DNA of 32,313 nucleotides, from contig CANJCO010000055.1 in assembly GCA_947473045.1 (NCBI GenBank), positions 1 to 32,313 of the forward strand, given 5' to 3'. How positions within the stretch are numbered: the stretch's first letter is position 1; every line of letters starts with the position of its first letter. Origin of the DNA: Myxococcales bacterium. GTDB lineage: Bacteria > Myxococcota_A > Polyangia > Polyangiales > Polyangiaceae. The notes under the pieces are model-generated. The model had not been told where the DNA came from and ran no database searches. It was given only the letters and a program-made list of their open reading frames with translations. This document shows, in pieces, positions 11,425 through 29,698 of the stretch. The position numbers and the translations under genes are program-made.

Positions 11425-12498
11425 CTACTGGCGGGTCCAGTGGCCCACGCCGCAGTATTGATGCGTCGCGGCGAGGCCGTATTTGTTCATCTGGCTCTGC
11501 GTGCACGCGCAGATGTTGCCGTAGGTGCCGTTGTAAAAGTCGTAGTCGTACGCGAAGTTGAAGGCCGAGCTGCCGCTCTGTCCGTCGGGCGGGTACCATG
11601 AGCCCTTGGTGCCGTAGGCGCAGTCGTACTGCTGCCAAATGCAGACCGAGTTGGTGACCTGGTTGCAGACCTGCTGCGCTTCGCAGCTGTAGTCGCCCGC
11701 CTTGCAGTTGACGACGACGTTGGCGTGCCCCTCGACTTCGATGCTCAGGCCCGCGATGCACAGGCCGGCGCTGCAGTTGGGCGTCTGCCCGCTGCAGGCG
11801 ATGCCGCAGCCTCCGCAGTTGGCCGGGTCGGTCATCACGTCGACGCACGCGCCACCGCAGAAGGCCTTGCCGGTCGGGCAGCAGTGGCCACCGCCGCACC
11901 ACTCGTCGAACGCGCACGCCGTGCTGCAGTCGCCGCAATGGTCGTGGTTTTGCTGCACGTCGAAGCAGACGCCGGCGCAATCGAGCTTGCCGCCGCTGCA
12001 GGCGATGCCGCACTTCGACTGCACACACGCGGGCGAGCCGAGATCCCACGGAGCGCCTGCGTCGGGGCCGGCGTCGAAGGGCACGCCAGCGTCGGGGTTG
12101 CCGTTGCCCGGGTCGAGCGCGCCCGCGTCGCCGACAGCGCACACCGTGGCGCAGGCGCCGCAATGTTTCGGGTCGCTCGTGAGATTAACGCACAGCGGCT
12201 CGCCGGCGCATTTTACCGCGGGCGCCGTGCACTCGGCCTTGCAAGCGCCGCTGCTGCACACCTGCCCTGACGCGCACGCGTGACCGCAACCGCCACAGTT
12301 TTTCGGATCGCTCGACGTGCTCGCATCGGGGCACGCGGAAGTGTCGGCTGTGGCGTCCGCCGGGGCGCCCGTGCTGGCGTCGTCGGACACGAGGGGCAAC
12401 GCAGCGGTGGCACACGCCGAGGCCAGACTCGCGGCCATCGCTCCGATGAGCGTCACCGATCCCGCGGCCGCGCCGATTCGAAAATGGGACTGTCTCAT
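11425..12498 (-). CDS. Cys-rich MXAN/Stig1-like lipoprotein A
   Basis: The product is 357 aa from the ATG at 12498, supported by GGGAGA 7 nt upstream; the frame is open beyond this but lacks a signal. The signal ends in LASAC (lipid Cys29). Four or more Cys-rich modules follow, each of the form DPxNCGGCGxxCxxGxxCxxGxC, interrupted by an Asp/Pro/Gly linker (about 150-185). The C-terminal ~100 residues form a different Cys-containing, Tyr/Asn-rich domain (for example NFAYDYDFYNGTYGN) with no module repeats. Such proteins are frequent in myxobacterial genomes and are thought to be cell-surface, disulfide-stabilised proteins; function is unknown. It lies 34 bp behind another Cys-rich gene on the same strand. 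Confidence 0.82.
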   Translation of the reverse strand: MRQSHFRIGAAAGSVTLIGAMAASLASACATAALPLVSDDASTGAPADATADTSACPDASTSSDPKNCGGCGHACASGQVCSSGACKAECTAPAVKCAGEPLCVNLTSDPKHCGACATVCAVGDAGALDPGNGNPDAGVPFDAGPDAGAPWDLGSPACVQSKCGIACSGGKLDCAGVCFDVQQNHDHCGDCSTACAFDEWCGGGHCCPTGKAFCGGACVDVMTDPANCGGCGIACSGQTPNCSAGLCIAGLSIEVEGHANVVVNCKAGDYSCEAQQVCNQVTNSVCIWQQYDCAYGTKGSWYPPDGQSGSSAFNFAYDYDFYNGTYGNICACTQSQMNKYGLAATHQYCGVGHWTRQ

Positions 12499-12532
12499 GT
12501 GCGATCTCCCAGAAAGCGGCCCGCCGGGCAGC

Positions 12533-13666
12533 TCACGGCAGACACTGCCAGGTGACCGTCTGGCAGAGGATCGGGCCGAACTGGTCGGAGCCGCAGGAGC
12601 CGCCGCCGTCGTAGGTCTCGTTGCCCGGCGCGTTGCAGGTCTCTTTCGCCCCCTGACAGTAGCCACACACGTCTGAGCAGGTGCCGCCGATTTTGCCCAC
12701 CTTGGTGTAGCCGAGCTTCTGACAAATTTGCAGAGAGTGGTAGTGCCCTCCGCCCGGGTTGTTGTGCGACAGCCAGGCGCTGTTCGAGTCGGCGCGGCAC
12801 ACGACCCAGGGGTCGTTCGTCTCGAGATCGTTTCCGGAAAGGCAGACCTGCACCGTTGAGTTCTTGCATGCGCCCGCGCTGCAGAACTTGCCCGCGGGGC
12901 ACGCGGCGCCGCACTGGCCGCAGTTCATGTTGTCGGTCTGTCCGTCGACGCAGTAGGGCGCGCCCGCGTCGCCGCCGCACTGCAGTTGGTCGGGCCCGCA
13001 CACAGGGGTGCACGCGCCGGCCGTACAGGTCTCCATCGCGGCGCAGCTGACGCCGCACGCGCCGCAGTTGCTGTTGTCGGTCTGCACGTTCGCGCAGTAG
13101 CCCGCTCCGCCGTCGCCGCCGCCGCAGCGTGTCTGGTCGGTCGTGCAGAAGCTCTGGCAAACCCCAGACGCACACACCTCATCGGATTTGCAGGCGGCGC
13201 CGCACTTGCCGCAGTTGCTGCCGTCGGCCTTGAGGTTCGCGCAATAGGGAGCGCCGGCGTCTCCGCCGCACAGGGTCTGGCCGCTCGTGGAGTCTCCGCA
13301 GGTGCCCGTGCAGAAGCCGCCGTTGCAGACCTCGCCTGACTTGCACGCCTTGCCGCACCCGCCGCAGTTGGCGTTGTCGGTTTTTGCGTTCACGCACGTC
13401 GCCGCGCCGCCGTCGCGCGCGCACTTCGTGTTGCTCGCGGGGCAGTCCTGCGAGCACACGCCTTTGTCGCACGCTTGGCCTGCGCTGCAGACCAACCCGC
13501 ATTTTCCGCAGTTTTCGGTGTCGGCCTGCACATCGATACACACGGCACCGCAGGCTTCTTTGCCCGGCTCGCAGGTGACGATCGCGGTCGCGTTTGCGCA
13601 GGAGGCCATCAGCAGCGTGAGGCCGATGAACAGCGCGGACCAGAAGGCGATTCGTTTCGTTTGCAC
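12533..13666 (-). CDS. Cys-rich MXAN/Stig1-like lipoprotein B
   Basis: The product is 377 aa from GTG 13666, which has GAGGT about 6 nt upstream. The signal peptide ends in MASC (lipid Cys23). Five to six tandem Cys modules follow, of the form CGGDAGAPYCxxxxTDNxNCGxCGxxC, spaced about 45-50 residues. The final ~110 residues are a separate domain with Trp- and Cys-rich segments (WVVCRADSNSAWLSHNN, CSDVCGYCQGAKETC) that differs from the tail of the neighbouring protein A. The modules should be disulfide-bonded in the periplasm or at the surface. It is probably cotranscribed with gene A downstream and diverges from Cys-rich gene C. Confidence 0.82.
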   Translation of the reverse strand: MQTKRIAFWSALFIGLTLLMASCANATAIVTCEPGKEACGAVCIDVQADTENCGKCGLVCSAGQACDKGVCSQDCPASNTKCARDGGAATCVNAKTDNANCGGCGKACKSGEVCNGGFCTGTCGDSTSGQTLCGGDAGAPYCANLKADGSNCGKCGAACKSDEVCASGVCQSFCTTDQTRCGGGDGGAGYCANVQTDNSNCGACGVSCAAMETCTAGACTPVCGPDQLQCGGDAGAPYCVDGQTDNMNCGQCGAACPAGKFCSAGACKNSTVQVCLSGNDLETNDPWVVCRADSNSAWLSHNNPGGGHYHSLQICQKLGYTKVGKIGGTCSDVCGYCQGAKETCNAPGNETYDGGGSCGSDQFGPILCQTVTWQCLP

Positions 13667-13795: not shown

Positions 13796-14656
13796 ATGGC
13801 CCCTCATCACACGCAGCGCGCCCGACGCGCGATGTTCTTCGCTCTCGTGCTGTCGGCGCCCGCGGCCATCCTCGCAGCTTCGGCGTGCGGAAGCGTTGAG
13901 GCGCCGCCGTGTCCGGGCGCGCTCGGCCAGTGCGGCGGCAAGTGCGTTAACGTCCAAAACGACCCGCTCAACTGCGGCGCGTGCGGCACCGCGTGCGACT
14001 CGACCTCGCTGTGCTCGCACGGCACCTGCGCCTCTGTTTGCGGCGCGGGCGAGCAGGGGTGCCCTTCCGGGGCGAGCGGGTTCTGCACGAGCCTCCAGAG
14101 CGACAACGCCAACTGCGGCGCGTGCGGCGCGGCCTGCAAAGCCCTCGAAAAATGCAGCGCCGGAAAATGCGCCGCGGGCTGCACGACGGGCGAGACCGGC
14201 TGCACGCCGAAGGTCGGCGCGCCGTATTGCGCCAATACGCAATCTGACGGCACCAACTGCGGCGCGTGCGGAGTGAGCTGCAAGGCGCTCGAGGTCTGCA
14301 ACGCAGGCGCGTGCGCGTCGACGTGCTCGGCGGGCCAAACCACGTGCCTCGGCGACGGCGGCCCCGGATACTGCGCAAAAACCGACACCGACAACGCCAA
14401 CTGCGGCGCGTGCGGGCACGCCTGCGGATCGCTCGAGGCTTGCATCGGCGGCGTGTGCAAGGGCGCGTGCACCAAGACGCAAACGCTCTGCGATCCCGAT
14501 GGCGGCACGCTCCAGGATGGCGCGACCGCGCCTCCGTTCTGCACCGACACGAGCAGCGACAACGCCCACTGCGGAGCGTGCTTCAACGCCTGCACGCCGA
14601 GCAAGCCGCTGTGCGTCAGCGGCGCCTGCTACAGCCTCGACGCGTCGCCGGGCTGA
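13796..14656 (+). CDS. Cys-rich MXAN/Stig1-like lipoprotein C
   Basis: The product is 286 aa if it starts at ATG 13796, which gives an Arg-containing n-region, a hydrophobic core and the lipobox AASAC (lipid Cys31). ATG 13832 is a shorter alternative with the same lipobox; no good Shine-Dalgarno decides. The mature protein is almost entirely tandem Cys modules: NCGACG or HCGACF occurs five times, at DNA positions near 13971, 14110, 14260, 14398 and 14573. Unlike proteins A and B it lacks a distinct C-terminal domain. It diverges from gene B, with which it shares DNA-level module sequence in inverted orientation. Confidence 0.8.
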   Translation: MAPHHTQRARRAMFFALVLSAPAAILAASACGSVEAPPCPGALGQCGGKCVNVQNDPLNCGACGTACDSTSLCSHGTCASVCGAGEQGCPSGASGFCTSLQSDNANCGACGAACKALEKCSAGKCAAGCTTGETGCTPKVGAPYCANTQSDGTNCGACGVSCKALEVCNAGACASTCSAGQTTCLGDGGPGYCAKTDTDNANCGACGHACGSLEACIGGVCKGACTKTQTLCDPDGGTLQDGATAPPFCTDTSSDNAHCGACFNACTPSKPLCVSGACYSLDASPG

Positions 14657-26978: not shown

Positions 26979-27182
26979 GGCTCGTCGCAAGATGGCGACG
27001 AAACCGTCCGCCGTCGAGAGGCGTGTCGCGCGGCGCGCGCTCGTTGCGTGTATTGTGCATGCACCGTGCGGGCGCGGCGAGGCCCATGGGACACGTAGCT
27101 TGACGGAAAAATGAGCCACTTCGTTTCTGGGCGCGGGCGCTAGTGGTGGAAAATTGCCGCGATTGTAGGCAAGGTGCGCGCT

Positions 27183-29324
27183 GTGAATCCCTTTGTGCTT
27201 CTGCTCGAAATTGGCGTCGAAGAGCTGCCGTCGTCGTTTGTCGACGCCGCGCTCTCCGCGCTCCCCGGCCTCGTCCGCGACAAGCTCGCGCAGCTGCGCA
27301 TCGCGCATGGCGCGGTCGAGGCGCTCGGAACACCGCGTCGCCTCGCCGTGCTCGTAGCCGATGTGGCCGGGGCGCAGTCCGACGTTGATGAAGAGGTGGT
27401 CGGACCGCCCGAAGCCGCCGCGTTCAAGGGCGGCGCACCGACGCGAGCCGCGGAGGCGTTCGCCGAAAAGCTAGGCGTGCCGGTCGCGCAGCTCGAGGTG
27501 AAGGAGCTCTCCGGCGCCGCTGCGAAGAAGCCGGGCCGGTATGTCGTTGGCCGCCGAGTCGAAGCCGGGCGCCCGTCGCGCGAGCTGCTTGGCGCCGCGC
27601 TCGCCGAGATCTGCGGCGCGATCCCGTTTCGCAAATCGATGCGCTGGGGCTCCGGCGAGGTCGCGTTCGGAAGGCCGGTGCAGTGGCTCGTTGCGCTTGC
27701 AGGCGACGCAGAAATCGCGGTCACGTTTGCTGGCGTGACGAGCGGACGCGTGTCGCGCGGGCATCGCTTTCTGTCTGCCGGCCCGATCGTCATCGCCCGC
27801 CCGGAGACCTACAAGGAGCAGCTGCGCGCCGAGCACGTTGTGTGCGATCGCGATGAGCGCGCGCGCGTCATGATGCAGCGCGTGGCCGCGGCGGCTACGG
27901 CGATGGGCGGAACCCATGATCCGGAGCCGGGCCTCGTGAGCGAAAACGCGTCGCTCGTCGAGGAGCCGCACATCGTGGTGGGCTCGTTCGACGAAGCGTT
28001 TCTTGCGCTGCCGGCGGCCGTGATTCGAGCGGTCGCGCGGGGTCACCAGAAATATTTTTGCGTCCAGGCCGACGCCTCGGGGGACGTGCTGCTGCCAGGC
28101 TACCTCGCCGTCGCCAACACAGCGCAAAAGCCTGAAAACGTAGCGCGCGGAAACGACCGCGTGATGCGCGCGCGACTTTCGGACGCCCGCTTCTTCTTCG
28201 ACGAAGACAAGAAAGTTCGCCAGGAGGCCCGCGTCGAAAAGCTCGCTGGCATCGTGTTTCACAATCGCCTCGGCACGGTTCGCGAGAAGGTCGACCGCAT
28301 GGGCCGCATCGCCGCGCACCTCGCAGGCGAGCTGGGGCTCGGCGAGGCGCAGACCGCGAGCGTCGCGCGCGCCGCGCTGCTGGCAAAAAACGATCTCGTC
28401 GCGCTCATGGTCGGTGAGTTTCCCGAGCTGCAGGGCACGATGGGCCGGGTGTACGCCGGCCATGCGGGCGAGGCCGCCGAAGTGTGCGACGCGATTCGCG
28501 ATCACTACGCGCCGGTGGGCGCCGACGGTGACGTTGCCGCTTCGGACGTCGCGCGGATCGTAGCGTTGGCCGACCGACTCGACTCGCTGGTGGGCTGCTT
28601 CGCGGTCGGGCTTCAGCCCACAGGCACGGCCGATCCCTACGCGCTGCGCAGGGCGACGATCGGCATTTTGCGCACGCTGCTCGAGTCGGGCGACGCGCGC
28701 TACGCCTCGATCGACGTGCTCGAGCTCTTTGCCTACGTTTACAGGGGTTTCAGCGACAAAAAGTTGGATTTGTCGGAGCTCGAGACCGTCGCCAAAGTCG
28801 GCGAGTTTGCGAGCGAACGGCTGCGCGGCCTCATCGAGTCGCGCACGAGCCGGGCGTCAGCCGACGCGGTGATGGCGGGCGGCGCGTTCGTTCGGGGCAA
28901 GCACGTCGCGGTCGTCTCGCACCCTCCGTACGCCCTCGCGCGAGCGCGGGCACTCGAGGCGGTGATCGGGAGCGGAGCCGCGTGGCTCGACAAGGCGCGC
29001 ACCGTCGCCAAGCGCCTCTCGGGCATCAGCAAAGAGAGCGCGCCGGAGCTCGTCGCCAAGAGCGCGCTGCCGAGGCCGGGCGATCAGGCGATCGTCGACC
29101 TGGTGCAGATCCTCGACGAAAAAACCCGCGCGCTGATCGACGAGGAGGGGGTCCGCGAAGCCCTGCTGGCGATGGGCTCGCTCGCGCTGCAGGTCGATGC
29201 CATCTTCACCGAGACGCTCGTCAACGATCCCGCCGACGCTTCGACCCCGCGCAGGCTGTCGCTGCTGTCGTACGGCGCGGGCTGTATGCTCCGCATCGCA
29301 GATTTCTCCCGCATCGGAGGTTAG
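27183..29324 (+). CDS. glyS: Glycyl-tRNA synthetase beta subunit
   Basis: This 713-aa subunit belongs to the heterotetrameric (alpha2beta2) glycyl-tRNA synthetase. The N-terminus NPFVLLLEIGVEELPS and the internal GHQKYF, RLSDARFFFDEDKK and LGTVREKVDR segments are diagnostic; ADPYALRR lies in the HD-like part, and the C-terminal third is the anticodon-binding region. GTG 27183 is preferred because AAGG ends 8 nt upstream (27171-27174); GTG 27174 is an alternative three codons earlier. The catalytic alpha subunit gene glyQ is not in the window, although it normally lies directly upstream. The PPDK-like domain gene follows 2 bp after the stop. Confidence 0.94.
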   Translation: MNPFVLLLEIGVEELPSSFVDAALSALPGLVRDKLAQLRIAHGAVEALGTPRRLAVLVADVAGAQSDVDEEVVGPPEAAAFKGGAPTRAAEAFAEKLGVPVAQLEVKELSGAAAKKPGRYVVGRRVEAGRPSRELLGAALAEICGAIPFRKSMRWGSGEVAFGRPVQWLVALAGDAEIAVTFAGVTSGRVSRGHRFLSAGPIVIARPETYKEQLRAEHVVCDRDERARVMMQRVAAAATAMGGTHDPEPGLVSENASLVEEPHIVVGSFDEAFLALPAAVIRAVARGHQKYFCVQADASGDVLLPGYLAVANTAQKPENVARGNDRVMRARLSDARFFFDEDKKVRQEARVEKLAGIVFHNRLGTVREKVDRMGRIAAHLAGELGLGEAQTASVARAALLAKNDLVALMVGEFPELQGTMGRVYAGHAGEAAEVCDAIRDHYAPVGADGDVAASDVARIVALADRLDSLVGCFAVGLQPTGTADPYALRRATIGILRTLLESGDARYASIDVLELFAYVYRGFSDKKLDLSELETVAKVGEFASERLRGLIESRTSRASADAVMAGGAFVRGKHVAVVSHPPYALARARALEAVIGSGAAWLDKARTVAKRLSGISKESAPELVAKSALPRPGDQAIVDLVQILDEKTRALIDEEGVREALLAMGSLALQVDAIFTETLVNDPADASTPRRLSLLSYGAGCMLRIADFSRIGG

Positions 29325-29326
29325 TC

Positions 29327-29698
29327 ATGGCCGTCATCGCACGAGGGCAGGGCGCGAGCCCGGGAGCAGCCACCGGGCCCATTGCCCTCACGCCTGAAGT
29401 CGTTGTCGCCTTCGCGGCGCAGGGAACTCCTGCGATCTTCGTGCGCACCGAAGTGCTCGCCGAAGACATGGCCGGCATCGCCGCCTGCGCCGCCCTCGTG
29501 ACGACGCGCGGCGGCATCACGGGCGACGGTGCCATCGCAGCCCGCGCGATGGGCAAGCCGTGCATCGCCGGCGTGCTGATGATGCGTGTAGACTACATGA
29601 GCAAGACGGTGCTGGTGACCGGCGAGGTCTCCCTCACGCTGCGCGAGGGGGAGACGCTGACGGTCGACGCTTCGCGCGGGGTGCTCGAGCGCGACTGA
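29327..29698 (+). CDS. Lone PPDK-type swivelling domain lacking the His
   Basis: This 123-aa protein starts at ATG 29327 with GGAGG 6 nt upstream. Its whole length matches the central phosphohistidine domain of pyruvate phosphate dikinase: GASPGAATG (9-17), FVRTEVLAEDM, then TTRGGITGDGAIAARAMGKP (59-78). In PPDK this last segment carries TSHAAVVAR with the phosphorylated His; here the position is Asp67 (GAC, one base from CAC). The nucleotide-binding and PEP-binding domains are absent. It cannot catalyse phosphotransfer as PPDK does, so it is a remnant or a repurposed binding domain. Being 2 bp behind glyS, it is cotranscribed; glyQS-ppdK linkage is known in other bacteria. Confidence 0.85.
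   Translation: MAVIARGQGASPGAATGPIALTPEVVVAFAAQGTPAIFVRTEVLAEDMAGIAACAALVTTRGGITGDGAIAARAMGKPCIAGVLMMRVDYMSKTVLVTGEVSLTLREGETLTVDASRGVLERD

Follow-up and report, generated by a model that had tools for sequence, protein, structure and literature searches.

A free-standing PPDK swivelling domain with an acid in place of the catalytic histidine in Polyangiaceae-type myxobacteria

Introduction

The closest described relatives of the protein presented here are the central (swivelling) domain of PPDK and three kinds of proteins in which a domain of this type is found in another setting. VadK (Rv1127c) of M. tuberculosis is a truncated, PPDK-derived protein that lacks outer domains, retains the ATP domain and a phosphorylated histidine, and has a role outside PPDK function, acting on methylcitrate enzymes (PMC13400623). 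The PEPut domain of B. subtilis PykA is a PPDK-type swivel domain outside a dikinase; it is fused to its partner domain, which it regulates, has kept its TSH motif, in which D substitutions have effects, and acts on pyruvate kinase and replication (PMC9009071). In the PpsAB, CreHI and HpeHI dikinases, the swivel domain resides on a polypeptide apart from the ATP-grasp domain, together with a substrate-binding domain and an essential histidine. Replacement of the histidine led to loss of kinase function or of phosphorylation in HpeH (H581Q; PMC12167813) and VadK (H422A; PMC13400623).

The 123-aa protein described below resembles the PPDK central domain (PF00391; TIGR01828 residues 386-499; PDB 2fm4) in fold, length (Z 17.9-23), identity (30-41%), the GGxT motif, Arg73 and Cys79, but it is encoded by a separate gene, carries Asp instead of the catalytic His and Gly instead of the preceding Ser, and is accompanied by no ATP or PEP domain. 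Like VadK it derives from PPDK and misses the outer domains, whereas both the ATP-binding domain and the catalytic His of VadK-type proteins are absent and only a swivel domain with an acid is left. Unlike the PykA domain it is separate and naturally acidic, and unlike the swivel subunits of the split dikinases it has neither a substrate-binding domain nor the histidine. A search of openly licensed papers for free-standing acidic swivel domains and for glyS-ppdK operons returned nothing relevant, and the single-domain family with an altered active site is apparently undescribed.

The gene and its locus

The window, i.e. the whole stretch of DNA that was analysed (32,313 nucleotides), is an entire contig (C55) of the near-complete genome of a Myxococcales bacterium (G000; 5.15 Mb, 138 contigs, 99.98% complete). 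The relevant features are as follows.

27174..29324, + strand: glyS (glycyl-tRNA synthetase beta), directly upstream of the domain gene (PF02092)
29316..29320, + strand: GGAGG ribosome-binding site, within the last codons of glyS; spacing to the ATG of the domain gene 6 nt (read from the sequence)
29327..29698, + strand: free-standing PPDK central (swivel / PEP-utilizers) domain, 123 aa (ORF, Pfam, NCBIfam, PDB sequence match, AlphaFold2)
29519..29521, + strand: ACG codon, Thr65, equivalent of the regulatory Thr in TSH (invariant in all aligned free-standing homologues)
29525..29527, + strand: GAC codon, Asp67, where PPDK has its catalytic His (alignment)
29543..29545, + strand: CGC codon, Arg73, equivalent of PPDK R462 (invariant in free-standing domains and PPDKs)

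The open reading frame extends from an ATG to a TGA codon and begins 2 nt behind the stop codon of glyS (TAG, 29322-29324); the ribosome site and intact frame that a reading of the sequence alone had claimed are both present. When the genome's own full PPDK was used as tblastn query, the swivel domain was the sole match and no other PPDK parts were found in the window, nor was a free ATP-grasp partner gene recognised there next to the domain gene. A complete PPDK with an intact TSH, for which the sequence-only reading had advised to look, is encoded elsewhere in the genome (C2:138055-140724), and a third PEP-utiliser gene on C31 codes for 886 aa with the motif GGPLSH.

At the locus of the full-length gene (L067:5394-11669, C2) the order is mutL, protein kinase, ppdK and miaA; the kinase gene (276 aa) overlaps the ppdK start by 4 nt and could be linked to PPDK control. 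The window also contains adjoining genes (11425-13666, - strand, and 13832-14656, + strand) whose Cys-rich products have recurring Cys-Gly units, e.g. NCGxCGxxC.

Domain identity and active site

Profile searches assigned the protein to the PEP-utilizers family PF00391 (5.6e-15; 55.1 bits against a gathering score of 23.1) and to the PPDK model TIGR01828 (1.2e-26), the latter over model residues 386-499 only and with 92.9 bits against an equivalog cut-off of 843, the ATP-binding and PEP-binding domains being absent. Among PDB sequences it matches residues 394-506 of maize PPDK (1.2e-19). An AlphaFold2 model computed with 18 homologues as input (pLDDT 95.9) has the swivelling beta/beta/alpha fold and superposes on PPDK residues 390-509 with a Z score of 23 and 0.9 A over 120 residues, and on the isolated PPDK carrier domain (PDB 2fm4) with a Z score of 17.9. 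The match to PPDK is far beyond chance and covers the whole length of the protein, as had been proposed.

The predicted change at the phospho-site was equally confirmed: the motif reads GGITGD as opposed to GGMTSH in PPDK, so that the catalytic His of TxH is replaced by Asp67, which opens helix 67-74 in the model. Asp is found at this position in 21 of 26 free-standing homologues, Glu in two (genus g12) and His in three (genus g13, TGH), whereas His is found in each of the 31 PPDK domains used for comparison. Asp67, whose conservation the sequence-only reading had proposed to test, is thus matched by an acid in 23 of 26 copies, one genus having Glu and another, with three copies, carrying His.

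The best-conserved stretch of the free-standing domains surrounds the site: G63, T65, A69, A72 and R73 are invariant and GGxT is kept. Class-specific residues (G9, L64, G66 and I70) mark the group, and the protein of the window has all features by which the family is defined here (single-domain ORF, G9, T65, G/S/A66, D/E67 and R73). PPDK-like surface residues (46, 47 and 73) are retained in most lineages; the acidic pair 46-47 is present in nearly all free-standing domains and lost in genus g12 (C-E). In non-plant PPDKs the equivalent of Arg73, R462, possibly contacts the PEP-binding domain through a salt bridge (PMC5371819).

Two observations concern other proteins of relatives. Three genomes of one genus (G047, G070 and G083) encode a longer PPDK-like protein of approximately 340-600 aa whose swivel domain reads TGE and not TSH (L050:4297-6045, - strand; L059:9410-10432, + strand; L060:8327-10135, - strand). 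In the one that was scanned only the swivel domain reaches Pfam, and these proteins are possibly pseudo-PPDKs with a parallel His-to-acid change. The PPDK match in G072 (C4, L049:4410-6038) is broken into two within a single 1347-aa frame, the break lying in the swivel domain at TSH; an in-frame insertion would explain this, as would a fault in the assembly.

Distribution and selection

Homologues were collected from 144 relatives and 108 genomes of the family, complemented by a scan of named genomes. The 26 free-standing copies whose site was read come from 12 genera, namely Polyangiaceae-type myxobacteria and one genome of another family of the same order (G128). Apart from the latter, carriers are the window's own genus, g5, g9, g12, g13 and several single-carrier genera. 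Within genus g5 the gene occurs in 12 of 12 genomes, with the site read in 11; matching records are named Labilithrix sp., Polyangiaceae bacterium and Myxococcales bacterium.

Frame-disrupted copies, which the sequence-only reading would have taken as counter-evidence, were not encountered among the 26 read. In genus g5 dN/dS ranges from 0.10 to 0.43 among the 16 closest pairs, with a median of 0.30 over all 55 pairs; a value of about 0.26 between G000 and G001 is rough because dS is high (1.3). With 26 intact homologues, an acid in 23 of them and dN/dS ratios of about 0.1-0.4, well below 1, the swivel-domain gene does not merely look maintained: it is maintained, and under purifying selection.

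Genomic context

A lone swivel domain follows glyS in G000, G001, G009 and genus g13, that is in 3 of the 12 genera, which are scattered. In the others the neighbours are ruvA, a dihydrouridine synthase, a sigma factor or protease/kinase-type genes. The coupling to glyS read from the window is thus real for this genome but not general. In genus g5 and G026 the domain lies behind ruvA and a 275-aa gene, ruvA being somewhat farther away in some g5 genomes. This neighbour belongs to a family of 230-290 aa next to or near ruvA (L053:8755-9582, - strand, and homologues) that has no Pfam match and was detected in 21 of the 23 genomes tested; being common across the whole family in genomes devoid of the swivel domain, it was rejected as a candidate partner. 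No consistently linked partner gene was found across the carrier contexts.

Many members of the family have a full ppdK directly after glyS (e.g. G016, G017, G021, G024, G062, G078, G005 and G454), and in G029 the ppdK in this position runs to the contig end. The same order of glyS and full ppdK is seen in Nitrospinota and Neomegalonema records. In G088, G099, G119 and G132 (L048, L045, L044 and L047, respectively) glyS is followed by a frame of 566-641 aa for a truncated, VadK-like PPDK with TSH kept; the frame of G099, which was scanned for domains, comprises the ATP and swivel domains but lacks the PEP domain. The same genome encodes, in addition, a PEP synthase and a PPDK in a full-length frame of its own.

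Most genomes with a free-standing domain encode a full PPDK. None was found in the carriers G012 (100% complete) and G053, both of genus g12, G128 (90%) and G009 (83%); genus g12 lacks the enzyme, G128 probably does so as well, and G009 may. An apparent absence in G050 was rejected, as glyS is there immediately followed by the start of a PPDK, where the contig ends.

Origin of the free-standing domain

The free-standing domain is derived from PPDK. In the domain tree, a branch with support 90 parts PPDKs and two truncated forms from all free-standing domains. A single clade of the latter is not rejected (p-AU 0.525), although a short alignment and long branches make the details of the tree uncertain; the free-standing domains, which share the class-specific residues G9, G66 and I70, probably have one origin. 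A clade restricted to the acidic forms, the His forms lying outside, is not rejected either (p-AU 0.512), so that the His of g13 may be ancestral or a reversion. The domain may evolve faster in the absence of PPDK, as PPDK-less lineages have its three longest branches, but the retention of PPDK-invariant residues does not set these lineages apart from g13, G011 and G029.

In a glyS tree of 66 genomes all carriers of the family fall into one subclade (27 genomes, mostly carriers), with G128 outside. The domain is therefore old in this subclade, and its distribution requires at least 6 losses or gains. Descent from ppdK, which the earlier reading had deduced from the gene order, agrees with the glyS-ppdK arrangement in relatives and other phyla, but the loss of outer domains from an only copy fits worse than a partial duplication of ppdK: most carriers still have the full gene, and we infer that the domain arose by such a duplication.

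Possible functions

The explanation that we tentatively prefer is that the acid-bearing swivel domain would act in trans as a charged module on PPDK-type machinery. The domain itself would be catalytically dead and no longer carry phosphate. The acid at the tip of the catalytic helix would imitate phosphohistidine and turn the domain into a permanently "charged" swivel module, which would take up a docking site normally filled by a phosphorylated swivel domain, in the simplest case that of the PPDK of the same cell, if it has one, and thereby damp or tune PPDK-type activity. Because the gene is under selection, the protein probably serves in binding or regulation and not as part of an enzyme. 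The fold match, the acid in 23 of 26 copies, the conserved surroundings of the site, the low dN/dS ratios, the single origin that is not rejected, the possible role of R462 and the VadK and PykA precedents all speak for this explanation. Exchange of His for Asp has been used as a phosphomimetic in VadK, where H422D did not replace the wild type (PMC13400623); mimicry is thus not a given. As PPDK was not found in the two genomes of g12 and is probably missing in G128, it cannot be the sole partner. Loss of the acidic pair 46-47 in PPDK-less g12 would fit a relaxed docking, in one genus only. Against the explanation speaks the His of g13, and the Asp at the helix start could be kept for stability alone.

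A domain kept in g12 and G128 without PPDK might also have left PPDK biology behind and serve as a docking or scaffold domain that binds another enzyme, the acid being part of a new binding surface. Varying contexts (glyS, ruvA, dihydrouridine synthase, sigma factor, protease/kinase-type genes), the C-E of g12 and the precedents of the PykA PEPut domain (PMC9009071) and VadK (PMC13400623) point in this direction; the lack of a consistently linked gene, the neighbour in g5 being family-wide without the domain, and the retention of PPDK-like residues 46, 47 and 73 in most lineages make it doubtful, although quite conceivable. Another possible target is the regulatory protein of PPDK and PEP synthase, DUF299 (PF03618), a kinase for the motif Thr that accepts its target only in the catalytic phospho-form, with phosphate on the adjacent His (PMC2817694). 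With an acid next to its invariant Thr, the domain would therefore suit the role of a constitutive substrate or decoy, in which D or E makes the Thr always acceptable and which would buffer the regulator or report on it. Thr65 is indeed invariant in all free-standing domains, but so is the motif Thr in PPDK, where it may be structural. Of the 26 family carriers, 25 have DUF299, PPDK-less ones among them (the exception is a 72% complete genome), and so does G128. This strong raw count is void as evidence once phylogeny is considered: carriers lie in one subclade in which DUF299 is near universal, and a paired test on independent pairs (3 pairs, median p 1) lends no support. DUF299 is, moreover, kept in genus g6 and G045 without PPDK and without the swivel domain, and we regard this role as unlikely.

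That the protein still carries phosphoryl groups, as an acyl phosphate on Asp or Glu formed by an ATP-grasp partner or through an active His form in g13, is very improbable. Fold, Thr and the Arg of the catalytic helix are preserved and g13 reads TGH, yet the HpeH and VadK substitutions show what relatives lose without the His, and no free ATP-grasp gene adjoining the domain gene was recognised in the window. Just as little credit can be given to a decaying ppdK fragment that was left by a deletion and is kept by chance through translation after glyS. The glyS-ppdK order in relatives and the fast evolution of some lineages would suit such a remnant, whereas 26 intact copies at several genomic positions, dN/dS well below 1, the conserved acid and the usual presence of a full ppdK would not.

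Implications

In phosphocarrier domains the histidine is often mutated to Asp or Glu to imitate phosphorylation. Evolution apparently made the same His-to-acid change on an isolated domain and retained it in some dozen genera. It is conceivable, if still rather doubtful, that these proteins form a pseudo-phosphocarrier family, in which a natural phospho-mimicking swivel domain split from PPDK would regulate PPDK-type enzymes or DUF299 in trans. Should it bind PPDK or the PPDK regulator, the domain would offer a ready-made probe of swivel-domain docking and would add a pseudoenzyme layer to the control of the PEP-pyruvate node. For small genes annotated as "PEP-utilizing enzyme", the histidine should be checked before they are listed as active carriers.
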